NCBI RefSeq assembly: GCF_025165815.1
Contig: NZ_JAFFZE010000014.1
Location: 124,001-188,000 of the forward strand
DNA length: 64,000 bases
Source: Actinophytocola gossypii
Lineage (GTDB): Bacteria; Actinomycetota; Actinomycetes; Mycobacteriales; Pseudonocardiaceae
Direction of reading: 5' to 3'
Part shown: piece by piece, positions 2,468 to 62,396 of the stretch
Numbering within the stretch: position 1 is the stretch's first letter
Layout: every line of letters begins with the position of its first letter
Translations under genes and position numbers: made by a program
Notes under the pieces: generated by a model
Databases searched by the model: none
The model's input: the letters and a program-made list of their open reading frames with translations, nothing else
What the model was told of the DNA's origin: nothing

Positions 2468-2561
2468 GTGCGTTCCTCTCGTCGACGACTGCCGGAAGAA
2501 TATGCCCCGGCTCCGACGCCGGGCCGGCACCTGCGCCACCATGGAGCGCGTGGAGCACTCG

Positions 2562-3218: not shown

Positions 3219-3228
3219 TTGCTGGACA

Positions 3229-5466: not shown

Positions 5467-5468
5467 CG

Positions 5469-6377: not shown

Positions 6378-6412
6378 AGGCCACCCACCGGAAACCGGCG
6401 GGTGGCCTTCAC
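6374..6412. terminator. Bidirectional terminator hairpin between mutT1 and hupB
   Basis: Arms GTGAAGGCCACCC (6374-6386) and GGGTGGCCTTCAC (6400-6412) are perfectly complementary. The interior CCGG-AAA-CCGG extends the stem past one mismatch. It lies between convergent genes and contains the mutT1 stop codon. No U-tract follows, as is usual for actinobacterial terminators. Confidence 0.85.
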
Positions 6413-6432
6413 GGAATGGGGCTACCGGCGCG

Positions 6433-7203
6433 TCACTTCTTGCGCGTGGTGGTCGCCTTCTTCGCGGCCGGACGGGCCTTGCTGGCGGCCTTCGTCGTCG
6501 TGGCCTTGGTGGCGGTCTTGGCGGTCGAGCGGGTGGCCGGCTTCGCCGCGGCCTTGGTGGTGGCCTTGGTGGTCGCCTTGGTGGTCGCCTTGGCCGGGGC
6601 CTTCTTGGCCGTCGACTTGGCCGCCGTGGTCTTCGCCGGAGCCGCCTTGGTGGCGGTCGACTTGGCCGTGCTCGCCCTGGCCGTGGTGGCCTTCTTGGCG
6701 GTGGACGCCTTGGCCGAGGTCGACTTCGCGGTCGACTTCGCGGCGGTGCTCTTCGCCGCCGTGGTACGGCTCGTCGCCGGCTTCGCCGCCGCGGCCCGCG
6801 TGCGGGTCGTGGTGGTGGAGCGCGACGCGGCCGGACGGGCCGCCGCCGTGCGCGTGGACGCCGCACGGCTCGTCGTGGTGGTGGCGCCGCGGCTGCCGGA
6901 GCGAGCCGTGGACACCTTGGGCAGCTTCTTCGCGCCGCTCACCACGTCCTTGAACGTCGTGCCGGCGCGGAACGCGGGCACGTTGGTCTTCTTCACCTTC
7001 ACCGTCTCGCCGGTGCGCGGGTTGCGCGCGGTGCGAGCGGCACGGGCACGCTTCTCGAACACACCGAAGCCGGTGATGTTCACCTTCTCGCCCTTGTTTA
7101 CCGTGCGGACGATCACATCGACCAGACCGTCGACAGCGGCGCCGGCAGCCTTCTTGTCGCCGAGACGATCCGAGAGCGCCTCGATGAGTTGGGCCTTGTT
7201 CAC
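6433..7203 (-). CDS. hupB: HU nucleoid protein with long Lys/Ala/Thr-rich tail
   Basis: Histone-like DNA-binding protein that bends and compacts DNA. Residues 1-90 form the HU fold (starting [20 protein letters not shown], with the DNA-grasping arm around [21 protein letters not shown]). Residues 95-256 are a basic tail of repeated [16 protein letters not shown]-like units similar to eukaryotic H1 and to mycobacterial HupB. At 256 residues it is longer than the 214-residue M. tuberculosis HupB. GTG 7203 has GGAGG 8 nt upstream. The tail repeats create long open frames on both strands that are not genes. Confidence 0.97.
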
Positions 7204-7343
7204 CCTTCAGTCCTCCGTTGACCACACATACGTTCTCGGCCAATCCGGCCGACTTCTGGCCACCGTATGCCTAACTCGGCACAATTTCCACGCGACTCGC
7301 CTGATTTCCCCGCTATGGGGGTGGCGATTCCGTTGCCTGACGG

Positions 7344-7955
7344 CTAATCGGCGACCTTGGACGGAAGTGTAGAGGTGGTGGGCTTCCAGGACGGCCTACC
7401 CCCCTCGTAAGTGTCGATCTCCTCGGAGTGGCGCAACGTCAAGGCGATGTCGTCGAGCCCTTCCAACAGCCGCCAACGGGTGTAGTCGTCGATGTGGAAC
7501 TGGGCGGTGAAGTCCTTGGCCCGCACGGTCTTGTCCCGCAGGTCCACGGTCACCTCGGTGCCCGGTTCCGCCTCCAGCAGCTTCCACAACAGCTCGACGT
7601 CGGACTGCGCGCACTCGGCCGCGACGAGCCCCTGCTTGCCCGCGTTGCCGCGGAAGATGTCCGCGAACCGGGAGGAGACGACGACCCGGAAGCCGTAGTC
7701 GGCGAGCGCCCACACGGCGTGCTCGCGGGAGGACCCGGTGCCGAAGTCCGGCCCCGCGACCAGGACGCTACCGGTCCTGTAGGGCTCCAGGTTCAACACG
7801 AAGTGCTCGTCGGAGCGCCAGGCGGAGAACAGCCCGTCCTCGAAGCCGGTGCGGGTCACCCGCTTGAGGTAGACGGCCGGGATGATCTGGTCGGTGTCCA
7901 CGTTGGACCTGCGCAGCGGCACGCCGACGCCGGTGTGGGTGGTGAACGGTTCCAT
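7344..7955 (-). CDS. leuD: 3-isopropylmalate dehydratase small subunit
   Basis: Swivel domain partner of LeuC; together they isomerise 2- to 3-isopropylmalate in leucine synthesis. The 203-residue protein has the N-terminal [14 protein letters not shown] and the [13 protein letters not shown] motif typical of LeuD. It lies 14 nt downstream of leuC in the same direction and is followed by 140 nt without a gene before hupB. Confidence 0.97.
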
Positions 7956-7969
7956 GGTCGTTACCCCTC

Positions 7970-9373
7970 TCAGTTCAGGTCTTCCGGGCTGGACAGGGTG
8001 CCGCGCACCGCCGTGGCGGCCGCGACCAGCGGCGAGACCAGGTGGGTGCGGCCACCCTTGCCCTGCCGGCCCTCGAAGTTGCGGTTCGATGTGGACGCGC
8101 TCCGCTCCCCCGGCTTGAGCTGGTCCGGGTTCATGCCCAGGCACATGGAGCAGCCAGCGGCCCGCCATTCGGCGCCGGCGTCGGTGAAGACCTTGTCCAG
8201 GCCCTCGGACTCGGCCACCGCCCGCACCCGCATCGATCCCGGCACGACGAGCATCCGCACGCCGTCGGCGACCCGGTGGCCGCGCAACACGTCCGCGGCG
8301 GCGCGCAGGTCCTCGATTCGACCATTTGTGCACGAGCCGAGGAAGACGGTGTCGACGTGGACGTCGCGCAGCGGGGTGCCGGGGGTGAGGTCCATGTAGC
8401 CGAGCGCCTTCTCGGCCGAAAGGCGCTCGTTCTCGTCGGCGAACTGCTCGGGGTCGGGCACGCGCTCGGACAGCGGCAGCCCCTGGCCCGGGTTGGTGCC
8501 CCAGGTGACGAACGGGGTGAGGGTGCTCGCGTCGATGCGCACCTCGGCGTCGAACTCCGCCCCGTCGTCGGTGCGCAGCGCCCGCCACGCGGCGACCGCC
8601 TCGTCCCACGCGGCGCCGGCCGGCGCGTGCGGACGGCCTTCGAGGTAGGCGAAGGTGGTGTCGTCCGGGGCGATCATGCCGGCGCGCGCACCCGCTTCGA
8701 TGGACATGTTGCAGATGGTCATCCTGGCCTCCATCGAGAGCTGTTCGATGGCGCGGCCGCGGTACTCGAGCACGTGGCCCTGTCCGCCGTTGGTGCCGAT
8801 CTTCGCGATGACGGCGAGGATGACGTCCTTCGCGGTGACGCCGGGGCGCAGCTCCCCGTCCACAGTGATCGCCATGGTCTTGAAGGGGCGCAGCGGCAAT
8901 GTCTGCGTGGCGAGCACGTGCTCCACCTCGGAGGTGCCGATACCGAAGGCGAGCGCGCCGAACGCGCCGTGGGTGGAGGTGTGACTGTCGCCGCACACCA
9001 CGGTCATGCCGGGCTGGGTGAGCCCGAGCTGCGGGCCGACCACGTGCACGATGCCCTGCTCCACGTCACCCATCGGGTGCAGGCGGACGCCGAACTCGGC
9101 GCAGTTCTTGCGCAGCGTCTCCACCTGGGTGCGGGAGACGGCGTCGGCGATGGGGAGCTCGATCTTCTCCGTCGGGACGTTGTGGTCCTCGGTCGCGATC
9201 GTCAGGTCGGGCCGGCGCACCCGCCGTCCGGACAGGCGGAGCCCGTCGAACGCCTGCGGGCTGGTCACCTCGTGAATGAGGTGGAGGTCGATGTAGAGCA
9301 GGTCCGGTTCGGCGCCGCTGCCCGCTCGCACGACGTGTTGGTCCCACACCTTCTCGGCAAGAGTTTTCGCCAT
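7970..9373 (-). CDS. leuC: 3-isopropylmalate dehydratase large subunit
   Basis: Catalytic aconitase-family subunit with a [4Fe-4S] cluster. Three ligand Cys are visible: one in [10 protein letters not shown] and two in CSMCLG. The 467-residue length is typical. [20 protein letters not shown] is the substrate-binding family signature. Start ATG at 9373. The 86-nt gap to divergent ndgR holds two operator-like repeats, so leuCD is probably under NdgR control as in Streptomyces and Corynebacterium. Confidence 0.97.
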
Positions 9374-9403
9374 CTTGGATTCACCATCGACTTCCACATG
9401 AGC

Positions 9404-9445
9404 GTTCCCACTGAGCGGAAGGCTGGACTTCCCATATAGCGGGAA
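9404..9445. promoter_or_regulatory. Tandem operator-like repeats between leuC and ndgR
   Basis: Two related sites, GTTCCCACTGAGCGGAAG (9404-9421) and TTCCCATATAGCGGGAA (9429-9445), share TTCCCA-N5/6-GC-GG(G)AA with 24 bp between equivalent positions. The second is an inverted repeat TTCCC/GGGAA. A weaker TTCC half-site begins at 9392. Their place in the divergent leuC/ndgR gap makes an IclR-type (NdgR) operator the simplest reading. Confidence 0.6.
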
Positions 9446-9459
9446 CATAGTATCGAGAC

Positions 9460-10161
9460 GTGGGACAGCATAGCGGCATCGGTGTTCTGGACAAGGCAAT
9501 GGCCGTGCTCGAGGCCGTGGCCAAGGAGCCGTGCGGTCTGGCCGAGCTCTGCACCAGGACCGGCCTTCCCCGTGCGACGGCGCACCGGCTCGCGGTGGGC
9601 CTTGAGGTGCATCGCTTGCTGCGCCGGGGAACCGACGGCCGCTGGCGCCCCGGTCCGGCGCTCGCCGAACTCGCCGGTGGCGCGGTCGACCCGTTGCTGG
9701 ACGCGGCGGGTTCGGTGCTTCCCCGGCTGCGCGACCGCACGGGCGAGAGCGTGCAGCTGTACCGGCGGGACGGAGCGCACCGGGTGTGCATCTCCACCGC
9801 CGAACCGCCGTCCGGGCTGCGGGACACCGTGCCGGTCGGCGCGAGGCTGCCGATGACCGCCGGCTCCGGCGCGAAAGTCCTTGCGGCGTGGACCGATCCG
9901 GCGACCCAGCGCACCCTGCTGAACGACGCGGTGTACGGCGAGCGCGCGCTGTTGGAGGTGCGACGGCGCGGCTGGGCACAGAGCGTGGGCGAGCGCGAAC
10001 CAGGCGTGGCAAGCGTGTCCGCGCCGGTGCGCGACGGCGCCGGAACGGTCGTCGCCGCGGTGTCGGTGTCCGGCCCCATCGACCGGATGGGGCGCCGGCC
10101 CGGTGCGCGGTGGGCGGCGGATCTGCTCGCCGCGGCGGACGCGTTGCAGGCGCGCCTCTAG
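9460..10161 (+). CDS. ndgR: IclR-family regulator of amino-acid metabolism (NdgR/LtbR-like)
   Basis: IclR-type transcription factor of 233 residues. An N-terminal winged helix (about 1-60, [20 protein letters not shown]) is followed by the ligand-binding domain (about 80-230, ending with [20 protein letters not shown]). Divergent arrangement with leuCD is the hallmark of NdgR in streptomycetes and LtbR in corynebacteria. There it controls leucine, tryptophan and related genes. GTG 9460 is the first start in frame. No Shine-Dalgarno is evident, so a very short leader is possible. Confidence 0.92.
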
Positions 10162-10211
10162 TCCATTCCGTACCGTCGACGGTGAGACCCTTCCGACTTC
10201 AGGAGCAGATC

Positions 10212-10493
10212 GTGCCGGATCAGGAGAAGCAGGAGCCGATCGACGCCGAGCTGGTGGAGGACCCCGCGCCGACGCCGGCGCCGGCGGGTGACTACACGGA
10301 CAGCGGAGTGCCGACGTTCGACTACGTGCGCGACCAGATCGAGAACCGCACCGCGACCGCCGCCGGCGCGACCGAACTGGCCGGCGAGTCCGCGCCGGGC
10401 CGGTCGGTCGAGCAGCAGTTCGCCGACCGCGAGAAGGCGGGCCGGGAAAAACTCGAGGAGATCCGCCGCGCCATGCGCGAAAAGAACGGGTGA
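10212..10493 (+). CDS. Conserved small acidic protein of unknown function
   Basis: A 93-residue hydrophilic protein. Residues 1-27 are acidic and Pro-rich. Residues 30-60 hold a PTFDYVRDQIENRTATA segment. Residues 65-93 are a charged helix (EQQFADREKAGREKLEEI). There is no signal peptide or membrane segment. GTG 10212 is chosen because AGGAG lies 6-7 nt upstream. It follows ndgR by 50 nt in the same direction. I do not recognise the family; the composition suggests a soluble, partly disordered partner protein. Confidence 0.72.
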   Translation: MPDQEKQEPIDAELVEDPAPTPAPAGDYTDSGVPTFDYVRDQIENRTATAAGATELAGESAPGRSVEQQFADREKAGREKLEEIRRAMREKNG

Positions 10494-10503
10494 CCTCCGC
10501 GGG

Positions 10504-10800
10504 TCAGCGGCGTCCCAGCAGGGCCCGTCTCCACGCCCGCCAGAGGCCGCGCCGTGGTCACCGCCTCGGGTGCGAGTTCGACGCGGCCCTCGGTGACCAC
10601 GACCAGGCGGGCGGCGGCCAGCCGGTCGACGGTGCGCCGGGTCCGGCGGCGAGCAGCGTGGACACGAAGGCGTCCTGGTCCTTCCGCGCGGCGAAGCGCG
10701 TGAACACCTCCTCGAACTGGCCCACCACCACGGGGTCGGCCTCGCCGCAACCGGTTCGGGGCCACGCGGTCGGGGTCGTGATCGCCACCAGGACCGTCAT
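10504..10800 (-). pseudogene. Degraded gene of unknown function, two frameshifts
   Basis: Starting from ATG 10800, the first frame gives about 53 plausible residues including GQFEEVFTRFAARKDQDAFV. The sequence then continues one frame over as RRTVDRLAAARLVVVTEGRV. In the third frame it ends GLWRAWRRALLGRR with TGA at 10504. Joined, the pieces make a continuous approximately 98-residue protein of normal codon use, so two small indels have broken the gene. The family is not recognised. Sequencing error would be an alternative explanation for the shifts. Confidence 0.45.
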
Positions 10801-10883
10801 GCCAGCCGACGTCGGGGCGGCCGCCTACGCGACCACCTACGCGGTCGCCGGCTCGCCACCGCCGCGGGCGACCGGCCGCCGCG

Positions 10884-11162
10884 TCAGAGGCCGCTGACGC
10901 CGATCGCGAGCAGCACCACCTCGAAGAACAGCTGGGCGCCGCCGACGGAGATTCCGGCCACGGCGGTCCAGTCGATGCGGTACTCCCGGCGGGTCACGAT
11001 CGACACCACGCCGAGGATGATCGCGACCGCCGCGACGGCGATGCCGAGGAACGGGGTCAGCCAACTCAGTACGGCCACGCCGAGCGAGATCGGCCCCAGC
11101 AACGCGAGCTTGCCGCGGCGGTCCCGCGCGGGCAGCTCCAGCGTGTCCGATTCTTCCGTCAC
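10884..11162 (-). CDS. Small three-helix membrane protein
   Basis: 92 residues. A short polar N-terminus (MTEESDTLELPARDRRG) is followed by three hydrophobic segments at about 18-36, 37-58 and 66-90. The pattern resembles small DUF4190-like actinobacterial membrane proteins, but no catalytic motif is present and the role is unknown. It faces the downstream LacI operon divergently, about 125 nt from the LacI start. Confidence 0.7.
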   Translation of the reverse strand: MTEESDTLELPARDRRGKLALLGPISLGVAVLSWLTPFLGIAVAAVAIILGVVSIVTRREYRIDWTAVAGISVGGAQLFFEVVLLAIGVSGL

Positions 11163-11210
11163 GTTCCCAGTGTCACACCGATGGGTTGCGATGGCGGTGC
11201 GCGCGGCCGT

Positions 11211-11250
11211 ACAGTCCCGGACTGTAAACGTTCTCGTAAACGTTTACAGT
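11211..11250. promoter_or_regulatory. Overlapping LacI-type operators upstream of the 11287 regulator
   Basis: The perfect palindrome GTAAACGTTTAC (11236-11247) is nested in a larger inverted repeat, ACTGTAAACG (11221-11230) with CGTTTACAGT (11241-11250). A second palindrome, ACAGTCCCGGACTGT (11211-11225), overlaps its left edge. The central CG and A/T-rich arms are typical of LacI-family sites. The position, 37 nt before the LacI start, indicates autoregulation of the operon. Confidence 0.8.
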
Positions 11251-11286
11251 CCAGCTGAGTCGCCTTTCACCGTTGCGAGGGACCCC

Positions 11287-12303
11287 GTGGCGCAGGCCAA
11301 GAAGTCGACGCTCACGCTCGTCGCCGAGCGGGCCGGCGTGTCGATCGCGTCCGTCTCGCGGGTGCTGAACGGGCAGCCGGCCTCCGAAGCGGTCACCGAG
11401 CGGGTGCGGGCCGCCGCCGCCGAGCTCGGGTACGTGCCGGACGCCACCGCCCGCTCGCTGAAGGTCGGCCGGACCGAACAGATCGCGCTCGCCGTCGCGG
11501 ACGTCGGGAACCCCGTCTACGTCAGCATGATGCGGGAGATCTCCGAGGTGGTGACCAGGGCCGGCTACCGGCTCGTGCTCTCCTCCACCGGCTCGGACCC
11601 GCGTGACCAGATCGACCTGCTGGTCGGCCTCAACCGCGGGTTCGCCGACGGCCTCATCCTCAGCCCGCTGCGGGTGCCGGAGGAACTCGGCACCCAGCTG
11701 CGCGCCAGCCGGTTCCCGATCGTCATCATCGGGTCGCTCCCGCCGGGCGTCGAGCTGGACAACGTCCGGGCGGACTCGGTCGCCGGCATGGCCCTCGCCG
11801 TCGATCATGTCGCGGACCAGGGGCGCGAGCGGGTCGCGTTCGTCAACGGGCCGGTCGACACGGTGCCGGGAGCTGCCAGGCGGGGCGGCTATCTGAAGGC
11901 ACTCGCGGCGCGGGGGCTGCGCCGGGACACCGGCGCCGAGGTCGAGGCCAGGGACTTCACCTACCGCGCGGGCCTGGACGCCGCCGCGCGGCTGCTCGAG
12001 CGGTGCACGCCGGACGCGATCGTCTGCGCCAACGACCTGCTCGCGATCGCCGCGCTGAACGTCGCCAGCCGGGGCGGCCTGCGCGTCCCCGACGACGTGG
12101 CGATCGTCGGCATGGACGACACCGACCTCGCCGAGCTGGCGAACCCCGCGATCACCAGCGTCGACCTCGGCGCGACCACCCGCGCGAAGGCCGCCGCCGA
12201 GCTGCTGCTGCGCCGGCTCGACGAGCCGGACGCGCCGGTCCAGCAGGTCGTCATCGAGCCGAAGCTCACCGTGCGCGCCTCCACCGAGAGGAGCGCCAGG
12301 TGA
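11287..12303 (+). CDS. LacI-family transcriptional regulator (first sugar operon)
   Basis: 338 residues. The N-terminal LacI helix-turn-helix is at about 8-55 (LVAERAGVSIASVSRVLNG), with a hinge helix near ATARSLKVG, then a periplasmic-binding-protein-like sensor domain ending VVIEPKLTVRAST. GTG 11287 has GAGGG 5 nt upstream. It is the first gene of a tightly packed operon running to 21893; its stop overlaps the first permease start (GTGA). It probably represses this operon through the palindromes just upstream and senses the imported sugar or a derivative. Confidence 0.93.
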   Translation: MAQAKKSTLTLVAERAGVSIASVSRVLNGQPASEAVTERVRAAAAELGYVPDATARSLKVGRTEQIALAVADVGNPVYVSMMREISEVVTRAGYRLVLSSTGSDPRDQIDLLVGLNRGFADGLILSPLRVPEELGTQLRASRFPIVIIGSLPPGVELDNVRADSVAGMALAVDHVADQGRERVAFVNGPVDTVPGAARRGGYLKALAARGLRRDTGAEVEARDFTYRAGLDAAARLLERCTPDAIVCANDLLAIAALNVASRGGLRVPDDVAIVGMDDTDLAELANPAITSVDLGATTRAKAAAELLLRRLDEPDAPVQQVVIEPKLTVRASTERSAR

Positions 12304-13235
12304 CCACTGCGACGAGCCGTCCGGTGCGGCCACGGCGGCCGCCGCGCGGGGTCGGCGGGTTCGGCGGCAACGGCGGGCGGGACGCCTGGCTGCTGGTGCT
12401 GCCGGCGCTCATCCCGGTCGTGCTGTTCAGCGTGTACCCGCTCGTCCAGGGGATCCTGCTCGGGTTCACCGACGCGCAGGCCGGGCTGAACCAGCCGGTC
12501 GACTTCAACGGCGTCGACAACTACACCCGGCTGCTCGACCACGACCTGTTCTGGAAGTCCTTCCGCATCGGGCTGATCTGGGCGTTCAGCGTCACGATCC
12601 TGCAGTTCCTCGCCTCGCTCGGGCTGGCGCTGCTGCTCAACCTGAACCTGCGGCTGCGCTGGCTCGCCCGCACGCTCGCGCTGGTGCCGTGGGCGATGCC
12701 CCCGGTGATCATCGCGATCATGTGGAAGCTGATGCTGAACCCGAGCTACGGGCCGATCAACGAGCTGATGCGCACGCTCGGGCTCCCGGGGGACATCAAC
12801 TGGCTCGGCGACTTCTCCACCGCGCTCCCCGCGGTGATCGTCGTCGGCATCTGGGCCGGCATGCCGCAGACCACGATCACGCTGCTCGCCGGCCTGCAGA
12901 ACGTCCGGGGCGAACTGCACGAGGCCGCGGCCATCGACGGCGCCGGCACCTGGCAGCGGTTCTGGCACGTGACGCTGCCGGCACTGCGCCCGGTGATCGT
13001 GGCGATCACCTCGCTCGACCTGATCTGGAACTTCAACTCGTTCGCACTGGTCTACGTGCTCACCGCGGGCGGCCCGGGCGGACAGACGATGCTGCCGATG
13101 CTCTTCGCCTACAACGAGGCGTTCCGCTACGGCAACTTCGGCTACGCGGCCGCGCTGGGCAACGTCATGGTCGTCGTGATCGCCGCGTTCCTCGTCCTCT
13201 ACCTGCGTGGCCAGGCAAGGAGCCGGGACTCATGA
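12300..13235 (+). CDS. Carbohydrate ABC transporter permease (MalF type)
   Basis: 311 residues with six predicted membrane segments after a basic N-terminus. The cytoplasmic EAA loop, which docks the ATPase, reads EAAAIDGAGTWQRFWHVTLP at about residues 204-223. It overlaps both neighbours by 4 nt (GTGA and ATGA), so the genes are translationally coupled. It pairs with the next permease and the lipoprotein after it. No ATPase is encoded in the operon; in actinomycetes a shared MsiK-like ATPase commonly serves such systems. Confidence 0.93.
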   Translation: MTTATSRPVRPRRPPRGVGGFGGNGGRDAWLLVLPALIPVVLFSVYPLVQGILLGFTDAQAGLNQPVDFNGVDNYTRLLDHDLFWKSFRIGLIWAFSVTILQFLASLGLALLLNLNLRLRWLARTLALVPWAMPPVIIAIMWKLMLNPSYGPINELMRTLGLPGDINWLGDFSTALPAVIVVGIWAGMPQTTITLLAGLQNVRGELHEAAAIDGAGTWQRFWHVTLPALRPVIVAITSLDLIWNFNSFALVYVLTAGGPGGQTMLPMLFAYNEAFRYGNFGYAAALGNVMVVVIAAFLVLYLRGQARSRDS

Positions 13236-14089
13236 CACCGACCGTCGCGCCGGTGCGGCGCACCCGCCCGTTCGCCCGGCCGCTGCAGTACCTGGCGCTG
13301 GCCGCCTACATGGTGTTCCTCGGCTTCCCGCTGGTGTTCCTGCTGTCCACGTCGATGAAGACGGCCCAGGAGCTGCGGTCGCCGGACAACTCTTTCCTGC
13401 CCGACCGGCTGAGCTGGGACAACTTCGGCGACGCGATCGAGAAGGCGAACCTGGTGCAGGCGGCCGGGAACAGCCTCTACGTGGCGACGTTGACGACGGT
13501 GATCGTGACGCTGGTCTCGCTGCCGGCGGCCTACGCGATGGCCCGGTTCCGCACGAGGCTGCGCGGGGCCGCGACGATCTGGATCCTGCTCAGCCAGGTG
13601 TTCCCGTTCATCCTGATCATCGTCCCGCTGTTCCTGGTGCTCAAGCAGATCGGGCTTGTCGACGACCCGCACGGGCTGGTGATCGCCTACACCGTCTGGT
13701 CGCTGCCGTTCGCGCTGTGGATGCTGCGAGGCTATGTCGCCGCGGTGCCGGTCGACCTGGAGGAGGCGGGCGCGATCGACGGCGCGTCGCGGTTGCGGGT
13801 GCTGCGCTCGATCGTGCTGCCGCTGCTGGCACCCGGGCTGGTGGCGACGAGCCTGTTCACGTTCATCTCCTCCTGGAACGAGTTCTTCTTCGCCCTGGTG
13901 CTCATCCAGGACCCGGACCTGCAGACCCTGCCGCTGACGCTCGCCCGGTTCGTCGGCGCCGAGGGTCAGGTCCAGATGGGACAGCTCGCGGCGGCGTCGC
14001 TGCTGGCGACGATCCCGAGCCTCGCGTTCTTCCTGCTCATCCAGCGCCGGCTCACCTCCGGGTTGATGAGCGGTGCGGTGAAGGGCTGA
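13232..14089 (+). CDS. Carbohydrate ABC transporter permease (MalG type)
   Basis: 285 residues with six membrane helices. The EAA loop EEAGAIDGASRLRVLRSIVL occupies about residues 173-192. C-terminal RRLTSGLMSGAVKG is typical of MalG-like permeases of the sugar (CUT1) class. ATG 13232 overlaps the previous stop (ATGA). It forms the heterodimeric channel with the preceding MalF-type protein. Confidence 0.93.
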   Translation: MTPTVAPVRRTRPFARPLQYLALAAYMVFLGFPLVFLLSTSMKTAQELRSPDNSFLPDRLSWDNFGDAIEKANLVQAAGNSLYVATLTTVIVTLVSLPAAYAMARFRTRLRGAATIWILLSQVFPFILIIVPLFLVLKQIGLVDDPHGLVIAYTVWSLPFALWMLRGYVAAVPVDLEEAGAIDGASRLRVLRSIVLPLLAPGLVATSLFTFISSWNEFFFALVLIQDPDLQTLPLTLARFVGAEGQVQMGQLAAASLLATIPSLAFFLLIQRRLTSGLMSGAVKG

Positions 14090-14126
14090 GCCCCGAGCCG
14101 AACGACCGACACAGAAGGAGTCACAC

Positions 14127-15422
14127 ATGAAGCGAAAGGCGTTGCTCGGCATCGGAGCCGTCGCCGTCGTCGCGCTGGTCGGCGGATGCGCCTTCAACTC
14201 CGAACAGGCCGACTCGGGCGGGGCGGCGGACGGCCCGGTCACGCTGACCTTCCAGAGCCTGGCGTACCAGGACTCGACGGTGGCCGCCACGAAGGAGATC
14301 GTCGACACCTGGAACGCCGAGCACCCCGACATCACGATCGAGCTGACGCAGGGCAGCTGGGACGGGGTGCACGACCAGCTGGTGACGCAGTTCCAGGGCG
14401 GCACCGCACCGGACATCATCCACAACGAGTCCAGCGACATCATGGGCTTCGCCGAGCAGGGCTACCTCGCCGACCTCGGCCAGTACCTCAGCGAGGACAC
14501 CACGAACGCGGTCAGCGACGAGGTGTGGGACACCGTCACCACCCGGGACGGCGAGGTCGTCGCCGCGCCGACGCTGATCCAGACCTACGTCGTGTTCGCC
14601 AACACCGACGCGTTCGCCGCCGCCGGCGTCGAGGTGCCGTCCGGCGACCAGTTGAGCTGGGACGACCTGCAAGCCACGGCCAAGCAGCTCACCCGCGACG
14701 GGAAGTTCGGCGTCGGCTGGGGACTGCGGCAGCCCACCGCGGCGGTGATGAACACCGCGCTCGGGTTCGGCGGCACGTACTTCGACATCGGCGAGGGCGA
14801 CGAGGCGGACACGATCCACGTCGGGGACGCTGAGCTGGCCGTGCCGGAGCGGATCCACGCGATGGCCCACGAGGACCGCTCGCTGGACCCGGTGTCGCTC
14901 ACCCAGTCCGGCAGCGACGTGCTGCCCGGCTTCCTCAGCGGCAAGTACGCCATGTACGTCGGCGGCAACTACCTGGCCCAGCAGATCACCGAGTCCGCTC
15001 CGGAGGGGTTCAACTGGACGGTGCTGCCGCCGCTGGCCGGCACCGAGGGCCCGGTGCAGGCGGCGAACCCGCAGACGATGTCGGTCTCCGCGCGCAGCGA
15101 GGCCCCGGAGCAGGCGGCCGAGTTCATCGACTACTTCATGAGCCCGGAGAACCAGGCGAAGCTGGCCCAGGGCGACTGGCTGATCCCGGCGTCCTCGCCC
15201 GCCCGCGACGAGTTGGCCGAGCAGACGAAGGACACCCCGGTGTGGCAGCCGATGCTGGCCAGCGCCGAGAACCTGTCCGGCGCGCCGTTCCAGCAGGCGT
15301 CGAAGTACCCGCAGTGGAAGGACCAGTACGCGACGCCGGCACTGCAGCAGTACTTCGCCGACTCGATCGGCCTGGGGGACCTGCGTACGAAGCTGACCGA
15401 CGGCTGGAACTCGATCGAGTGA
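14127..15422 (+). CDS. Sugar-binding lipoprotein of the ABC importer
   Basis: 431-residue extracellular solute-binding protein. The signal peptide ends in lipobox LVGGC with the lipidated Cys at residue 21. The mature protein has the family 1 pattern (DIIHNESSDIMGFAEQGYLADL, then FLSGKYAMYVGGNY and the ENQAKLAQGDWLIPA region). Ribosome site AAGGAG is 7-8 nt upstream. It is the substrate-specifying component for the two permeases before it. The ligand cannot be read from sequence; CUT1 proteins usually bind oligosaccharides or glycosides. Confidence 0.92.
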   Translation: MKRKALLGIGAVAVVALVGGCAFNSEQADSGGAADGPVTLTFQSLAYQDSTVAATKEIVDTWNAEHPDITIELTQGSWDGVHDQLVTQFQGGTAPDIIHNESSDIMGFAEQGYLADLGQYLSEDTTNAVSDEVWDTVTTRDGEVVAAPTLIQTYVVFANTDAFAAAGVEVPSGDQLSWDDLQATAKQLTRDGKFGVGWGLRQPTAAVMNTALGFGGTYFDIGEGDEADTIHVGDAELAVPERIHAMAHEDRSLDPVSLTQSGSDVLPGFLSGKYAMYVGGNYLAQQITESAPEGFNWTVLPPLAGTEGPVQAANPQTMSVSARSEAPEQAAEFIDYFMSPENQAKLAQGDWLIPASSPARDELAEQTKDTPVWQPMLASAENLSGAPFQQASKYPQWKDQYATPALQQYFADSIGLGDLRTKLTDGWNSIE

Positions 15423-15448
15423 CCGAACGACCCGAAGGAGAACGACAC

Positions 15449-16591
15449 ATGGACCTGCTCGAGGACAAGGCGACGGGCGCGCTGGCCGGAGCCGCGGTGG
15501 CCGACGCGCTCGGCGGCGCGGCGGAGGGCAACACGCCCGAGGCCATCCGCGAGCGGTACGACGGGTTCGTCGAGGGCATCGTGCCGCCGTTCAACGAGGA
15601 CTGGCGGCACGCCCGCCCGATCGCGCCGTACCACAAGGGCGACGGGCACGTCACCGACGACACCCTGATGACCACCGCCCTCGTGCGGGTCTACGACACC
15701 GTCCGCGACCACCTGGACGCGCACGCGGTCGCCGAGCACCTGGTGCCGCTGCTGATGGGCGAGCGCCGCTGGATCCCGGAGCTGGAGACCGAGACGATCC
15801 TGCTGCACCGGCTGTTCCTGGCGGAGAAGTGGCTCGTGGCGCGCCTGCACTACGGGCACGTCGACCCGCGCTCGGCGGGCGTTGGCAACATCGTCAACTG
15901 CGGCGCGGCGATGTACGCGGCGCCGATCGGGATCGCGAACGCCGGCTCGCCGGACGGCGCGTACACGGAGGCGATCGACGTCGCAGGCGCGCACCAGTCG
16001 AGCTACGGGCGCGAGGCCGCCGGCGTGTACGCGGCCTGTGTCGCGGAGGCGATGCGGCCGGAGGCGTCGGTCTCCTCGGTCGTCGAGGTCGCGCTGCGGC
16101 TGGCGAAGGACGGCACCCGGGACGCGATCGACGCCGTGGTCGGGGCGGCGTCGACGCTTCCGGACTGGCGGTCGTCGCTGGCCGGGCTGCGGGCGGCGGT
16201 GGAGCCGTTCGACACGGTCGGGCCGAACTACCGGGAGCCGGCGCGGGACGCGCGGATCCCGAGCCGCACCAAGTCGATCGAGGAGCTGCCGGTGGCACTC
16301 GGCATGCTCGTGGTGGCCGGCGGCGACTACCGGGAGACCGTGCTCGGCTCGGTGAACTACGGCCGCGACTCGGACTCGATCGCGGTCATGGGCGGGTCGA
16401 TCGCCGGTGCCCTCGGCGGACGCGGCGTCGTGCCGGACGAGTGGGTCACCGACGTCGGCGAGGCCAGCCGGATGGACGTCACCGCCACCGGCCCGACGAT
16501 GGCGGCGGTCGCGAAGGAGATCTGGGCCAAGGACCGGGAGCGGTTCGACCGCCGCGCCGCCCTGTTCGACTCGCTCGGGAAGGCCGCCTGA
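15449..16591 (+). CDS. ADP-ribosylglycohydrolase-fold enzyme 1
   Basis: 380 residues. This all-helical ARH/DraG fold usually cleaves N- or O-glycosidic bonds to ADP-ribose at a binuclear Mg site. The metal motifs are present: HVTDDTLMTTALV at about residue 68 and GRDSDSIAVMGGSIAGALGG at about residue 310. Ribosome site GAAGGAG is 8 nt before ATG 15449. Genes of this fold next to sugar transporters probably act on an imported glycoside or nucleoside rather than on ADP-ribosylated proteins; this is inference from context. Confidence 0.88.
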   Translation: MDLLEDKATGALAGAAVADALGGAAEGNTPEAIRERYDGFVEGIVPPFNEDWRHARPIAPYHKGDGHVTDDTLMTTALVRVYDTVRDHLDAHAVAEHLVPLLMGERRWIPELETETILLHRLFLAEKWLVARLHYGHVDPRSAGVGNIVNCGAAMYAAPIGIANAGSPDGAYTEAIDVAGAHQSSYGREAAGVYAACVAEAMRPEASVSSVVEVALRLAKDGTRDAIDAVVGAASTLPDWRSSLAGLRAAVEPFDTVGPNYREPARDARIPSRTKSIEELPVALGMLVVAGGDYRETVLGSVNYGRDSDSIAVMGGSIAGALGGRGVVPDEWVTDVGEASRMDVTATGPTMAAVAKEIWAKDRERFDRRAALFDSLGKAA

Positions 16592-16593
16592 GG

Positions 16594-17943
16594 ATGCTGC
16601 GACTGACCTGGACCCAGCCGGAGGACCTGGTGCCGCACGGCATCCGGGCCGCCCGGCTCGACGGGATCGACGTGGACGACCTGGCCGGCGAGTGGGTCGC
16701 GGCGGGCGGCTCGCTGGACGCGCCCGCGTCCGGCGCGACGCCACGGCCCGTGTCCGAGGAGCTGCGCGCGCTGGGGCGGGCCACGCTGTCCCGGTTGGAC
16801 GAGCGGGCGGCGCCGGCGGAACTGCGCCGGGTCGAGCCGGACGGGCTCGACGAGATCCTGGCGTCGGCCCGGCCGGTCGGCGCGACCGGTGTGCCGGCGG
16901 ACCTGGACGACCGGGTGCACGGCGCCTGGCTCGGGCGCGCGGCGGGGTGCCTGCTGGGCAAGCCGGTGGAGAAGATCCCGCGCGAGGGCATCCGGGCGAT
17001 CGCGCGCGGCACCGGCAACTGGCCGATCTCCGGGTACTTCACCGAGGTCGGGCTGCCCGAGGACGTGGCGGCCCGGTACGCGTGGAACCGCCGCAGCCGT
17101 TCGACCAGCCTCGTCGAGAACATCGACGGGATGCCCGAGGACGACGACCTGAACTACCCGCTCATCGCGCTGGACCTGCTGGAGCGGCACGGCGACGGAT
17201 TCACCACCGACGACGTGGCGCAGTCCTGGTTGGACAACCTGCCGGGCGGGCGGGTGTTCACCGCCGAGCGGGTGGCCTACCGGAACCTGCTCGACGGGTA
17301 CGAGCCGGAGGTGGCGGGCGCGGTGCGGAACCCGTTCCGGGACTGGATCGGCGCGCAGATCCGCACCGACGTGTACGGCTGGACGCACCCGGGCGACCCG
17401 GTCACCGCGGCCCGGCTCGCGTGGACGGACGCACGGCTCAGCCACGGACGGAACGGCGTGTACGGGGCGATGTTCGCGGCCGCCGCGTGCTCGGTGGCGG
17501 TCACCGGGGTCGGCGTGGCGGGGGTGCTCGAGGCCGGGCTGTCGGTGGTGCCGCCGGGATCGCGGTTCGCTGCGGCGGTCACGCTCGGTGCGGAACTGGG
17601 TGCCGGGCCGCGGCCGGTGGAGGACGCGCTGGACGTCATCCACGACCGGTACGGCGACCTGCACTGGGTGCACGTGCTGAACAACGCCGCCGTTCTCGGG
17701 TTCGCGCTCGTGCGCGGCGACGGCGACTACGCGCGGACGATCACGACCGCGGTGACCGGCGGGTGGGACACCGACTCGACCGGCGCCACCGCGGGGTCGA
17801 TCGCGGGTGCGTCGACCGGTGCGTCGGCGCTGCCCGCCCGGTGGGTGGATCCGCTGCGCAACCGGCTCGCCACCAGCATTCCCGGCTTCGACGGCATCGG
17901 GTTCGACGAACTGTCCGCGCGCACGGTCGCACTGGTGAGGTGA
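16594..17943 (+). CDS. ADP-ribosylglycohydrolase-fold enzyme 2, N-terminally extended
   Basis: 449 residues, starting 2 nt after the first ARH-fold gene. The ARH core starts at about residue 105 (DRVHGAWLGRAAGCLLGKPVEK). The first metal motif is the variant GMPEDDDLNYPLIALDLLE instead of TDDT. The second is GWDTDSTGATAGSIAGA. The extra 100 N-terminal residues have no recognised domain. The two paralogues differ enough to suggest different substrates or successive steps in one pathway. Confidence 0.87.
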   Translation: MLRLTWTQPEDLVPHGIRAARLDGIDVDDLAGEWVAAGGSLDAPASGATPRPVSEELRALGRATLSRLDERAAPAELRRVEPDGLDEILASARPVGATGVPADLDDRVHGAWLGRAAGCLLGKPVEKIPREGIRAIARGTGNWPISGYFTEVGLPEDVAARYAWNRRSRSTSLVENIDGMPEDDDLNYPLIALDLLERHGDGFTTDDVAQSWLDNLPGGRVFTAERVAYRNLLDGYEPEVAGAVRNPFRDWIGAQIRTDVYGWTHPGDPVTAARLAWTDARLSHGRNGVYGAMFAAAACSVAVTGVGVAGVLEAGLSVVPPGSRFAAAVTLGAELGAGPRPVEDALDVIHDRYGDLHWVHVLNNAAVLGFALVRGDGDYARTITTAVTGGWDTDSTGATAGSIAGASTGASALPARWVDPLRNRLATSIPGFDGIGFDELSARTVALVR

Positions 17944-17947
17944 CGCC

Positions 17948-19906
17948 ATGACCGACCCAGACGAGGCGAACACCAACAACGTCGACCCGTTGGTGCCGCG
18001 CGCGATCGACCTGCCGACGACGCTGCCCCTCGACGGTTCGCTCGACCCGGCCGCCGGGGACGTCGCCAAGGTCTTCGCCGCGCCGGACGATCCGGCGGAC
18101 TGGCCGGCGTGGCGGGCCGCGCTCGCCCGCTGGCGCACCGAGGCCCGCACCCGCCTGGACTACGACGGTTCGCTGTACGACAGGCCGGAGACGGCGTGGA
18201 CGCGATCCTGCTACAGCGTCGCCCTGGTGTGGCTGTGGGACGAGCGGCTGTTCGACCGGACGCTCGGGCGGTTCGACGTGGCCGGGTTCCTCGAGCGCAC
18301 CGAGGACCACGGCGGGTTCGACGGGGTGGTGCTGTGGCACGCCTACCCGGTCATCGGCATCGACGACCGCAACCAGTTCGACTTCTACCGCGAGGTTCCC
18401 GGGCTGCGCGAGGTCGTCGGCGAGTTCCAGGCACGCGGGATCCGGGTGTTCCTGAACTACAACCCGTGGGACACCGGCACCCGGCGGCCCGCGCACGACG
18501 ACGCCACCGAGCTCGCGCTGCTGGCCGGCGAGCTCGGCGCCGACGGGATGTTCCTCGACACGATGAAGGAGGGCGACGCCCGCCTCGTGTCGGCCCTGCT
18601 GGACGCGGGTCAGGTGTTGGAGGGCGAGTCGCGGGTGCCGAACCAGCGGATCCCCGACCACCAGCTGAGCTGGGCCCAGTGGTTCGCCGACAGCGCCGTG
18701 CCCGGCGTGATGCGGGCCCGCTGGTACGAGCAACGGCACATGACGCACTCGACCAGGCGGTGGAACCGGGACCACAGCGACGAGCTCCAGTCGGCGTTCC
18801 TGAACGGCGCCGGGATGTTGGTGTGGGACACGGTGTTCGGCGTCTGGGTCGGCTGGAACGAACGCGACCGGGCGACGCTGCGGCGGATGCTGCGGGTGCA
18901 GCGGGCGTGCACGGACCTGTTCGCCTTCGGCGCGTGGGAGCCGCTGGTCGACGCCTCCCCCGATGCGCTCGCCGCCGGGGTGTACGCGTCCCGGTTCGAC
19001 GGGGACGGGCTGCGGCTCTGGACGCTGGTGAACCGAGGCGACACGGACTTCACCGGCGAGCCGCTGACCGCGACCGGCGGTACCTGGTTCGACCTCACCG
19101 CCGGCGCGCGCACCGACGGCCGGATCACGGTGCCCGCCCGCGGGGTCGCGGCCGTGCTCGCGGTCGACGGCGCCGAGCCGGACTGGCTGCCCGGACTGCT
19201 GGCGGCCGCCGCGCGGGACGACGGCGGGACCGGCACGGGCTTCCCGGCGCGCTGGGCGTCCCGGGTGGAGCCGTCCCGCGCGACCGGGTCGGCCGGGGCC
19301 GCGGTGCGGGTCGCCGGCGGTCGGCGCGAGCTGACGATGACCTACCGGCGCCGCGAGACCGGGAGCTACCAGGGGGCGCCGTACGTCGAGGAGTGGAAGC
19401 CGCTGCCGCCACGCCTGCACGATCCGCGCGAGGAACGGCTGACCGTCGACCTCGCCGAGGTGGCCGTCGCGGTGACCGAGGTGACCGGTGCGCAGTTCGC
19501 GGAGTTCCTCGCCGCCACCGGCTACGAACCGTTGTGCGGCAACAGGTTCCGGCCGGGATCAGACGACGGGCCGGTGACCATGGTCGGGCTCGACGACGCG
19601 CGCGCGTACGCGGCGTGGGCGGGCGCGCGCCTGCCGACCGAGTTCGAGTGGCAGGTGGCCGCGGGGTCCCCGGAGTTCCGGCGGGCCACTCCCCTGGTGT
19701 GGAACTGGACCGAGAGCGAGCACACCGACGGCGTCACCCGGTTCGTGATGCTCAAGGGCGGCAGCGACCACGAGAGCACCGGCTCCGACTGGTACGTCGA
19801 CGGCGGCCCGCGCGAGCCGTCGTTCAGCCTGAAGTTCCTGCTGCCCGGTCTCGGCCTGGACCGCTCGCCGAACATCGGCTTCCGCCTGGCCTGGGAGGTC
19901 CGATGA
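17948..19906 (+). CDS. Glycosidase-like TIM-barrel protein fused to an FGE-fold domain
   Basis: 652 residues. About 60-330 looks like a glycoside hydrolase barrel: VVLWHAYPV at 127, GIRVFLNYNPWDTG at 164, DGMFLDTM with candidate nucleophile Asp204, and LEGES with candidate acid Glu225. A beta-rich segment follows to about 400. Residues 500-652 match the formylglycine-generating-enzyme/EgtB (C-type lectin-like) fold: VTEVTGAQFAEFLAATGYEP, RLPTEFEWQVAA and FVMLKGGSDHEST. The paired catalytic Cys of true FGE are missing after KGGS, so sulfatase activation is unlikely. No signal peptide is visible, so it is probably cytosolic. Confidence 0.72.
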   Translation: MTDPDEANTNNVDPLVPRAIDLPTTLPLDGSLDPAAGDVAKVFAAPDDPADWPAWRAALARWRTEARTRLDYDGSLYDRPETAWTRSCYSVALVWLWDERLFDRTLGRFDVAGFLERTEDHGGFDGVVLWHAYPVIGIDDRNQFDFYREVPGLREVVGEFQARGIRVFLNYNPWDTGTRRPAHDDATELALLAGELGADGMFLDTMKEGDARLVSALLDAGQVLEGESRVPNQRIPDHQLSWAQWFADSAVPGVMRARWYEQRHMTHSTRRWNRDHSDELQSAFLNGAGMLVWDTVFGVWVGWNERDRATLRRMLRVQRACTDLFAFGAWEPLVDASPDALAAGVYASRFDGDGLRLWTLVNRGDTDFTGEPLTATGGTWFDLTAGARTDGRITVPARGVAAVLAVDGAEPDWLPGLLAAAARDDGGTGTGFPARWASRVEPSRATGSAGAAVRVAGGRRELTMTYRRRETGSYQGAPYVEEWKPLPPRLHDPREERLTVDLAEVAVAVTEVTGAQFAEFLAATGYEPLCGNRFRPGSDDGPVTMVGLDDARAYAAWAGARLPTEFEWQVAAGSPEFRRATPLVWNWTESEHTDGVTRFVMLKGGSDHESTGSDWYVDGGPREPSFSLKFLLPGLGLDRSPNIGFRLAWEVR

Positions 19907-21078
19907 GCGCGCCGCTGCACGGGATCCGGGTGCTGGACGTGTCGACGTTGTTCGCCGGGCCGCTGGCCGCGACGCTGCTCGGTGACTTCGGCGCCGACGT
20001 GATCAAGGTCGAGCACCCGCGCAAGCCGGACGCCGCGCGCGGGCACGGCCCGGCCAAGGACGGGGTCAACCTGTGGTGGAAGACCCTCGGCCGCAACAAG
20101 CGCACCGTCACCATCGACCTCGGCACGCCGCGCGGCGCGGAGCTGCTGCTGGCGCTGGCCGCCGAGGCGGACGTGCTGATCGAGAACTTCCGGCCGGGCA
20201 CACTCGAACGCTGGGGCCTCGGACCGGACGAGCTGCACGCGGCGAACCCGCGGCTGGTGATCGCGCGGGTGACCGCGTTCGGCCAGTTCGGGCCGTACTC
20301 GGCGCGCCCCGGCTTCGGCAGCCTGGCCGAGGCGATGAGCGGTTTCGCCGCCCTCACCGGCGAACCGGACGGTCCGCCGACGCTGCCGCCGTTCGGGCTC
20401 GCCGACGGCATCGCCGCGCTGGCCACCGCCTACGCGGTCATGGTCGGCCTGCGCGCCGGCACCGGCCAGGTGATCGACATGGCGATCATCGAGCCGATCC
20501 TGATGCTGCTCGGCGGCCAGATCACCGCCTACGACCAGCTCGGGCAGGTGCAGCCGCGCACCGGCAACCGGTCGGTGAACAACGCGCCGCGCAACGTCTA
20601 CCGCACCGCCGACGGCGACTGGGTGGCGGTGTCGACCAGCTCCCAGTCGATCGCCGAGCGGGTGCTGCGGCTGGTTGGCCGCCCGGACGTGGTCGACGAA
20701 CCGTGGTTCGCCTCCGGGCACCAGCGCGCCCAGCACGCCGACGAACTGGACGCGGCCGTGTCGGCGTGGATCGCCGCCCGGCCGACCGAGCGGGTGGTCG
20801 CCGAGTTCGAACGGGCGCAGGCGGCCGTCTCCCGCGTCTACGACGTCCGCGGCGTGCTCGCCGACCCGCAGTACCAGGCCCTGGGCACGGTCCGCACGGT
20901 CGACGACGAGGAGCTGGGGCCGATCCGGATGCAGAACGTGCTGTTCCGGATGTCCGCGACACCCGGCGAGATCCGCTGGCCGGGACGGCGGCACGGCGCC
21001 GACACCGACGAGGTGCTGGCCTCGATCGGGGTCACGCCCGAGCAGCTGGCCGCGCTGCGGGAAAGCGGGATCGTGTGA
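19903..21078 (+). CDS. Family III CoA-transferase (CaiB/BaiF type)
   Basis: 391 residues. Transfers CoA between carboxylic acids through an acyl-Asp intermediate. N-terminal GIRVLDVSTLFAGPLAATLL and FGADVIKVEHP are family signatures. The probable catalytic Asp is Asp168 in FGLADG, at the position corresponding to Asp169 of formyl-CoA transferase. RPGFGSLAEAMSGFAAL resembles enzymes acting on C4-C5 dicarboxylates such as mesaconate or citramalate. ATG overlaps the preceding stop (ATGA) and the gene's own 3' end overlaps the lyase start, so activation and cleavage appear coupled. Confidence 0.9.
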   Translation: MSAPLHGIRVLDVSTLFAGPLAATLLGDFGADVIKVEHPRKPDAARGHGPAKDGVNLWWKTLGRNKRTVTIDLGTPRGAELLLALAAEADVLIENFRPGTLERWGLGPDELHAANPRLVIARVTAFGQFGPYSARPGFGSLAEAMSGFAALTGEPDGPPTLPPFGLADGIAALATAYAVMVGLRAGTGQVIDMAIIEPILMLLGGQITAYDQLGQVQPRTGNRSVNNAPRNVYRTADGDWVAVSTSSQSIAERVLRLVGRPDVVDEPWFASGHQRAQHADELDAAVSAWIAARPTERVVAEFERAQAAVSRVYDVRGVLADPQYQALGTVRTVDDEELGPIRMQNVLFRMSATPGEIRWPGRRHGADTDEVLASIGVTPEQLAALRESGIV

Positions 21079-21893
21079 TCACCGGGCTGTACGTGCCGGG
21101 TGACCGACCGGACCGCTTCGACAAGGCCGTGGCCACGGGCGCCGACCTGGTGATCCTGGACCTGGAGGACGCGGTGGCGCCGGAGCGCAAGGCGTTCGCG
21201 CGGGACGCGGTGGTGGCGTGGCTGGTCGACCGGGCCGCGGAGTGCGTGGTGCAGGTCCGGGTGAACGCGGGCGACGGCGACGACCTCGCCGCGTTGCGAG
21301 GGCTGGCCGGCTTCGAGGTGCGGCTGCCGAAGGTGGAGGCCCCGAGCGAGGTCGACGAGGTGGCGGCGGTGCTGCCCGGCGTGCCGGTCACCGCACTGGT
21401 GGAGAGCGCGCTCGGGGTGGAGCGGGCGGCGCGGATCGCCGGGCACCCGGCCGTCACCCGGCTCGGGCTCGGCGAGTCCGACCTGGCCAGCGAGCTGGGC
21501 ACGGACGCGGACGCGGTGCTCGACCACGCCCGGGTCCGGCTGCTCTACGCGGCGCGGGCGGCCGGCCTGCCGCCGCCGATGCTGTCGGCCTACCCCGCGA
21601 TCGCCGACCTGGCCGGCCTGCGTGCCGACACCGAACGCGGGCGGCGGCTGGGCTGGGTCGGCCGGGTCGCGGTGCACCCGACGCAGCTGCCGGTCATCGC
21701 GGAGGTGTTCCGGCCAACCGAGGCCGAACGCCGCTGGGCCGACCAGGTCCTGGCGGCGGTCGGCACCGGCGGCGTCGCGACCCTGCCGAACGGCGAGATG
21801 GTCGACCCGGCCATGGTCGGCCGGGCCAGAGCCATCCTCACGCGCACGGGGGTAACTCCACAGGGTGATCGACACCACCTACCGAAACGGTAG
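21075..21893 (+). CDS. HpcH/HpaI-CitE family lyase
   Basis: 272 residues. Metal-dependent C-C lyase of the CitE/malyl-CoA lyase class. GLYVPGDRPDRFDKA and LVILDLEDAV start the barrel. VRVNAG provides the carboxylate-binding Arg. LVESALGV and LGESDLASELG provide the metal-binding acids. GTG 21075 overlaps the CoA-transferase stop. CoA-transferase plus CitE-like lyase suggests CoA activation of a hydroxy-dicarboxylate followed by cleavage to acetyl- or propionyl-CoA and a 2-oxoacid. The stop TAG is inside the palindrome that precedes the tetR gene. Confidence 0.88.
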   Translation: MITGLYVPGDRPDRFDKAVATGADLVILDLEDAVAPERKAFARDAVVAWLVDRAAECVVQVRVNAGDGDDLAALRGLAGFEVRLPKVEAPSEVDEVAAVLPGVPVTALVESALGVERAARIAGHPAVTRLGLGESDLASELGTDADAVLDHARVRLLYAARAAGLPPPMLSAYPAIADLAGLRADTERGRRLGWVGRVAVHPTQLPVIAEVFRPTEAERRWADQVLAAVGTGGVATLPNGEMVDPAMVGRARAILTRTGVTPQGDRHHLPKR

Positions 21894-58191: not shown

Positions 58192-58204
58192 AGGGAACCC
58201 CCGT

Positions 58205-60846: not shown

Positions 60847-60855
60847 CGCTCTCCC

Positions 60856-60919: not shown

Positions 60920-60942
60920 TCTCACTCGATCGAGGAGGTTCG

Positions 60943-61707: not shown

Positions 61708-61716
61708 GGCGGAACA

Positions 61717-62382: not shown

Positions 62383-62396
62383 ACAGGAGCCGTGCC

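Follow-up and report, generated by a model that had tools for sequence, protein, structure and literature searches.

A conserved actinobacterial operon that may import and degrade a furanoside of a hydroxy-dicarboxylic acid

We analysed a stretch of 64,000 nucleotides from the 7.4 Mb genome of Actinophytocola gossypii (contig NZ_JAFFZE010000014.1, positions 124,001 to 188,000 of the forward strand; hereafter the window) and identified an operon of nine open reading frames on its + strand (11287-21893) that joins a sugar importer to ADP-ribosylglycohydrolase (ARH)-fold enzymes and a coenzyme A (CoA)-transferase/lyase pair. The nine genes very probably form one LacI-controlled catabolic unit, because all nine recur in 64 of 66 related loci, are collinear in 65 of them and stand behind an operator found at a single place in the genome. 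This gene set is tightly conserved in actinobacteria yet uncharacterised, and we found no description of such a pathway in the full-text literature, a coverage that takes in few subscription papers. We tentatively propose that the operon imports and degrades a hydroxy-dicarboxylic acid linked to a furanose, most likely ribose. Its features are as follows.

11236-11247 (no strand): palindromic LacI-type operator GTAAACGTTTAC, an exact match 39 bases before lacI
11287-12303 (+): LacI-family regulator P0001 (PF00356/PF13377; best NCBIfam model RbsR, 181.5 bits, cut-off 531)
12300-13235 (+): CUT1-type permease 1, P0002 (PF00528, BPD_transp_1)
13232-14089 (+): CUT1-type permease 2, P0003 (PF00528, BPD_transp_1)
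14127-15422 (+): sugar-binding lipoprotein P0004 (PF01547, SBP_bac_1; lipobox visible in the sequence)
15449-16591 (+): ARH1, P0005, ARH fold (PF03747; TDDT and DxDS motifs)
16594-17943 (+): ARH2, P0006, ARH fold with N-terminal extension (PF03747; EDDD and DTDS motifs)
17948-19906 (+): GHFGE, P0007, 652 residues, with an unclassified N-terminal domain (about 1-490) and a C-terminal domain resembling formylglycine-generating enzyme (FGE; PF03781 at 500-589 only)
19903-21078 (+): CaiB, P0008, type III CoA-transferase (PF02515, CoA_transf_3, 392 bits; D167)
21075-21893 (+): CitE-type beta-hydroxyacyl-CoA lyase P0009 (PF03328, HpcH_HpaI; best NCBIfam model RipC_Ccl)

The Pfam scan returned the expected family for each product, and adjacent genes overlap by 4 bases or are separated by 2 to 37 bases, as calculated from the coordinates. 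An initial annotation, made from the letters alone, had described nine overlapping or nearly abutting genes comprising a CUT1 importer, two ARH-fold enzymes and a CoA-transferase/CitE pair, and all of these were recovered: two BPD_transp_1 permeases with an SBP_bac_1 lipoprotein, two PF03747 proteins, and PF02515 next to PF03328. None of the nine genes encodes an importer ATPase; four UgpC/MsiK-like ATPases are encoded elsewhere in the genome (best match 63%). The TetR and MmpL genes that follow (21936 on) were excluded from the operon, as none was seen after CitE in relatives read gene by gene.

Related loci were collected with the N-terminal part of GHFGE as query; when whole GHFGE was used, most matches fell on the FGE-like part (residues about 500-620), and these hits were not taken as orthologues. 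The best 80 of 195 matching stretches, all from Actinomycetota as judged by record titles, were retained, and the 14 without full flanks were excluded from the counts, leaving the 66 flank-complete loci. Genes in relatives were identified by tblastn with the window proteins or by reading N-termini, and representatives of some kinds were confirmed by Pfam. Both permeases, the binding protein and ARH2 occur in all 66 loci, LacI and ARH1 in 65, and CaiB and CitE in 64. Locus L047 is the exception in gene order, and L061 is a reduced locus without LacI, ARH1, kinase, CaiB and CitE. Locus L042 (Arthrobacter sp. M4, 2284-11992) retains the importer, ARH1, ARH2, kinase and GHFGE and is devoid of CaiB and CitE. 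Among 60 relatives, full-length GHFGE was found in 4 genomes and a broken copy in a fifth; it is present in 3/6 genomes of the window's genus. Genome G032, from the same family as the window, carries a decayed copy of the operon (L024, about 8172-10765), in which the GHFGE match is in pieces next to a CitE fragment and an apparent kinase fragment. A scan of a 396-genome phylum sample for the GHFGE N-terminal part found only the window's own genome, so that the domain is either rare or the scan insensitive. In a quick CitE tree, built without roughly half the operon rows and without any row shorter than 200 residues, the window CitE clusters with those of Microbacteriaceae and Glycomyces (support 100), apart from other Pseudonocardiaceae such as Amycolatopsis, and transfer of the operon between families is likely.

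Counts based on ARH1 (E <= 1e-80) and CaiB (E <= 1e-110) tie the two halves of the operon together. ARH1 was detected in 61/394 genomes of the class and 10/396 of the phylum sample; the 61 genomes are not independent, as 27 are from a single Streptomyces-like genus (g57) and they represent 16 genera altogether, so that the p-value computed for their association with CaiB is too favourable. All 61 also encode CaiB, 57 within 10 kb of ARH1 and 4 at another locus. With the near-fixed gene content across many families, this gives good support to the earlier claim that the genes serve one pathway. Twenty ARH1 neighbourhoods were read, of which 17 contain CaiB and CitE, 18 ARH2, 12 the kinase and 14 an importer with LacI. 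The three loci without CaiB (L161, which ends at a contig end, L162 and L164) are from genomes that encode it elsewhere; loci L165 and L101 are probably from one genome. Two small genomes (G747 and G676; 1.3 and 1.8 Mb, 98-99% complete) retain LacI, importer, ARH1 and CaiB at loci L173 and L174, with a distant CitE (29 and 34%) and no kinase, and L173 additionally has no ARH2. Retention of these genes in such small genomes suggests that the substrate remains valuable even when the genome shrinks.

The operator upstream of lacI is a perfect 12-base palindrome (shuffles average 0.01), and its 14-base form, TGTAAACGTTTACA, occurs at one place only in the whole genome when up to 1 mismatch is allowed. 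In 60/72 relatives a loose form of the pattern, matched without a chance control, is found no more than 220 bases from lacI; Glycomyces accounts for 11 of the 12 misses. The NCBIfam models nearest to LacI are RbsR, CytR, PurR and UriR, with every score below cut-off. At locus L176 (16141-19411), a surface-esterase gene and lacI point away from each other, and two operator-like palindromes lie in the gap.

ARH1 and ARH2 have the PF03747 fold of ADP-ribosyl hydrolases with intact motifs, which we take to form the metal site: TDDT and DxDS are kept in 74/74 relatives of ARH1, EDDD and DTDS in 75/75 relatives of ARH2. Scores on the curated DraG and Tri1 equivalogs (cut-offs 337.05 and 490 bits) are far too low for both proteins: 38.8 and 45.4 bits for ARH1, 29.9 and 20.6 bits for ARH2. 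We consider it likely that these enzymes hydrolyse a furanoside. A second ARH pair, ARHx/ARHy, occurs in 16/20 ARH1 neighbourhoods and GHFGE in 5, with both present in L176 only; none of the 80 GHFGE loci, some of which are cut, has ARHx/ARHy as best match at E <= 1e-10. GHFGE thus seems to replace ARHx/ARHy, and their alternation between loci suggests that GHFGE performs a similar task.

The label of a barrel glycosidase that the initial annotation had given to GHFGE gained no support: neither a Pfam family nor a solved structure was matched by residues 1-481, and searching Pfam and PDB with 4-row and 17-row alignments of the N-terminal part returned nothing useful. D204 and E227, candidates for a pair of catalytic acids, are invariant in 41/41 GHFGE rows and also kept in the Sphingopyxis and Spirosoma homologues. 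The two cysteines of the FGE active site lie close together. We found no such pair, and no invariant cysteine, in the FGE-like part of the 41 rows; only columns 555 (18/41) and 647 (20/41), 92 residues apart, exceed 30% cysteine. A sulfatase-family protein (PF00884) is encoded in the same window (31012-32382, - strand).

The sugar is indicated by a ribokinase-like gene located between ARH2 and GHFGE in 57/66 flank-complete loci; the nine loci without it include L061. Residues N10, D12, GGKG, N42, E136 and D240 of the kinase, presumably its sugar and ATP site, are kept in all 63 sequences compared, and 16 of its 18 PDB matches are ribokinases. Because this gene and its invariant motifs are so widely retained among the relatives, we lean towards ribose as the sugar. 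The closeness of LacI to RbsR and CytR models, all of them scoring under cut-off, agrees with this. Aceric acid and apiose were considered and rejected, as the kinase motifs suit ribokinase better and literature searches yielded nothing relevant; a GH127-like protein encoded at a related Sphingopyxis locus scored 83.4 of 950 bits for aceric acid hydrolase.

For the acid, CaiB and CitE quite probably activate a hydroxy-diacid with CoA and then cleave it in a retro-Claisen reaction. D167 of CaiB is kept in 75/75 relatives, and the models nearest to CaiB are succinate-glutarate and succinate-3-hydroxy-3-methylglutarate (HMG) CoA-transferases. CitE retains R62, E110 and D136, the active-site Arg/Glu/Asp of RipC/Ccl, in all 70 sequences compared; by motif these correspond to Arg64, Glu112 and Asp138 of the related lyase Rv2498c, whose roles have been described and which cleaves (S)-citramalyl-CoA and (R)-HMG-CoA (PMC6689899, excerpt). 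Twenty neighbourhoods of CaiB homologues away from ARH1 were inspected, and several contain a DctM permease and RraA-like aldolase, MmgE/PrpD or amidohydrolase genes, and also cyclase, hydantoinase/dihydroorotase-like and racemase genes. A CitE match adjoins CaiB on the same strand in ten of these and is otherwise farther away, on the opposite strand or absent. These neighbouring genes point to hydroxy-dicarboxylate chemistry; an MmgE/PrpD protein of an itaconate cluster isomerises methylsuccinate (PMC12290011, excerpt). A LarA gene next to ARH1 at L157, an ARH1/ARH2 locus without CaiB, also speaks for the proposal. The data do not discriminate between malate, citramalate and 3-hydroxy-3-methylglutarate as the acid.

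In the pathway that we propose, LacI would hold the operon repressed at the upstream operator until a sugar-like inducer arrives, and the CUT1 importer, energised by an ATPase encoded elsewhere, would take in the conjugate, from which a surface esterase may first strip an ester in some relatives. GHFGE (elsewhere the second ARH pair), ARH1 and ARH2 would then hydrolyse glycosidic bonds to yield ribose and the acid. A ribokinase, encoded in the operon of most relatives and perhaps elsewhere in this genome, would convert ribose to ribose-5-phosphate, CaiB would transfer CoA onto the acid, and CitE would cleave the resulting hydroxyacyl-CoA to give an acyl-CoA plus an oxo-acid. That ribose and acid are the two halves of one imported molecule is a possibility we rate slightly short of even. 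The glycoside of an organic acid suggested by the initial annotation fits these data and is narrowed by the ribokinase-like gene to ribose and by the CaiB neighbours to hydroxy-dicarboxylates, while the glycosidase role of GHFGE, the particular acid and the substrate itself did not gain the same support.

Several observations weigh against this proposal. To our knowledge, no common natural riboside of a hydroxy-dicarboxylate can be named. The Pfam and PDB searches detected no relative of known fold for the GHFGE N-terminal domain, and the Spirosoma GHFGE homologue has no annotated partner genes around it. The window operon itself has no ribokinase-like gene, the best match elsewhere in the genome being 49% identical, and P0010, the single actinobacterial kinase copy scanned, missed the TIGR02152 ribokinase cut-off (273.1 versus 299.65 bits). 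CitE likewise missed the curated RipC_Ccl cut-off (144.4 versus 375 bits), and CaiB that of every curated CoA-transferase model. Met133 of Rv2498c contacts the methyl group of the substrate (PMC6689899, excerpt), and the position matched to it by motif is Gly or Ala in 69/70 CitE sequences, so the substrate of the window CitE may differ from citramalate.

The modules are also separable, which the initial annotation had named as a finding that would refute its reading and which is in part the case, and this too counts against a single fixed pathway, even though ARH1 and CaiB are strongly associated. At the thresholds used, 36/97 CaiB genomes have no ARH1; 17 of the 36 were read, and two of these (L200 and L208) turned out to contain parts of the ARH cluster. 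Nonomuraea locus L135 resembles the window in its LacI, CUT1 importer, ARH1 (68%), ARH2 (54%) and operator, and it has a ribokinase like most relatives, but it carries ARHx/ARHy where GHFGE would be, four ARH genes in all, and CaiB-CitE lies about 600 kb off (L140). The stand-alone Nonomuraea CitE shares one branch with 42 operon copies (support 89 by a quick method, inner order open). Plasmids of Deinococcus and Mycolicibacterium have ARH, kinase and importer genes without CoA genes. Among the flank-complete loci, L042 and L061 are the two without CaiB and CitE. ARH2 (E <= 1e-40) was found in 8 of the 60 relatives, 4 of them without GHFGE, and no CaiB is seen in these four neighbourhoods (L156-L159). 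L156 has ARH2, the kinase and a mannitol-dehydrogenase-family gene, and in L158 and L159 ARH2 is the sole member of the set. L157 has importer, LacI, ARH2 (44%) and ARH1 (65%), followed by a LarA lactate-racemase gene (549.8 bits, cut-off 460); its region 5163-13850 also includes Gfo/Idh/MocA, UPF0261 and PEP-hydrolase-like genes and, at the end, an apparent FGE-like protein. In favour of the association, a TonB receptor, ribokinase (47%), GHFGE (32%), the GH127-like protein and a CoA-transferase adjoin in Sphingopyxis; against it, this CoA-transferase is just 35% identical to CaiB and nearest to a mesaconate model.

A cluster in the Streptomyces-like genus g57 has the order ARHx-ARHy-ARH1-ARH2, with a kinase in 4/5 read, followed by CaiB-CitE. 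It shares ARH1-ARH2 and CaiB-CitE with the window, but has no GHFGE, importer or LacI alongside; its flanks we take to be gltB/gltD-like and lgt/trpA/trpB-like genes. The importer trio is located elsewhere in 4 of 10 g57 genomes searched (permease 1, 61-64% identity), one other has only a 37% match and five have none at that threshold. By gene order, the Streptomyces coelicolor counterpart is presumably SCO2028-2033, and the four consecutively numbered SCO2028 to SCO2031 are probably part of it. The latter are among eight uncharacterised DraG/ARH homologues of this species (PMC9411070, excerpt), and an earlier list includes SCO2028-2030 among seven (PMC5087735, excerpt).

Characterised systems resemble the operon only in part. 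Succinyl-CoA:citramalate CoA-transferase and citramalyl-CoA lyase belong to the 3-hydroxypropionate bi-cycle. Like the window pair they combine a type III CoA-transferase with a CitE-family lyase and no hydratase in between; the window pair, however, is tied to sugar genes and falls below the RipC_Ccl cut-off. RipABC itaconate degradation is similar in that RipC_Ccl is the model closest to the window CitE, but no itaconyl-CoA hydratase is encoded beside the lyase or anywhere among the nine window genes, and the RipABC CoA-transferase is, we assume, from a different family (RipA family). Escherichia coli yegTUV, linked to glycogen by PMC10819704 (in the part available), also combines an ARH-fold protein, a sugar kinase and a transporter, but the latter is a putative nucleoside symporter, and the system has just three genes and a GntR-type regulator.

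Other substrates would account for parts of the data. An oligosaccharide of plant or microbial walls that is esterified and contains furanose is conceivable but unlikely: a surface esterase would free an acid, the importer would take in the sugar part, the ARH enzymes and GHFGE would be furanosidases, and CaiB/CitE would burn the separately entering acid. An esterase gene (PF00756 and a beta-propeller repeat) is indeed close to GHFGE in 20/66 flank-complete loci (23/80 overall), two Plantactinospora loci have it between GHFGE and CaiB, and the divergent esterase with operator-like sites at L176 and the GH127-like gene of Sphingopyxis fit this as well. However, 46/66 loci have no esterase nearby, Pfam detects no importer for the freed acid among the nine window genes, the kinase resembles ribokinase, and plant walls contain little ribofuranose. 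A nucleoside-like N-riboside, from whose base the acid derives later, is less likely again. Consistent with it are the proximity of LacI to the RbsR, CytR, PurR and UriR models, albeit under their cut-offs, the hydantoinase/dihydroorotase-like, cyclase and racemase genes beside CaiB homologues away from ARH1, and the nucleoside symporter of yegTUV; an apparent amidohydrolase gene follows GHFGE in L061, but among 11 and 20 neighbourhoods inspected by eye, without a systematic search, this was the only one with such a gene.

We regard it as improbable that the ARH proteins act as genuine ADP-ribosyl hydrolases in a cluster that erases ADP-ribosylation or salvages ADP-ribose. The PF03747 motifs of these proteins and the listing of the S. 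coelicolor proteins as DraG/ARH homologues would allow it, but a sugar importer and LacI accompany ARH in 14/20 ARH1 loci, the DraG and Tri1 scores are far under cut-off, CaiB and CitE would have no evident role, and neither SCO2028 nor SCO2030 acted on uracil-linked ADP-ribose, the single substrate covered (PMC13036486, excerpt). Least probable of all is that the acid genes have no link with the rest beyond a common transcript: the separate modules of Nonomuraea and the CaiB genomes without ARH1 speak for it, whereas the retention of CaiB by all 61 ARH1 genomes, even in the four with another locus, and the presence of CaiB/CitE in 64/66 GHFGE loci argue otherwise.

At its end (55340-64000), the window also encodes a sarcosine-oxidase-like alpha subunit and a DAO oxidase beside MttB-family methyltransferase, B12-binding and pterin-binding proteins, together with a RACo-like protein that is cut by the window end. 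This group looks like a corrinoid demethylation set adjoining sarcosine oxidation.

If the proposed degradation of a hydroxy-dicarboxylate riboside is correct, some bacterial ARH-fold proteins now counted as ADP-ribosylation enzymes would serve sugar catabolism, many actinobacteria would use a nutrient not yet recognised, and GHFGE would be a candidate for a new glycoside hydrolase family. The widest form of this idea, which we hold to be doubtful yet worth stating, is that ribosyl (furanosyl) conjugates of hydroxy-dicarboxylic acids may be a common, overlooked carbon source with a pathway conserved in actinobacteria, Streptomyces among them, that four of the eight S. coelicolor DraG/ARH homologues may be its furanosidases, and that the GHFGE N-terminal domain may be a new glycosidase family replacing two ARH enzymes. 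The operator, the binding protein and the enzymes give direct experimental access to the substrate.

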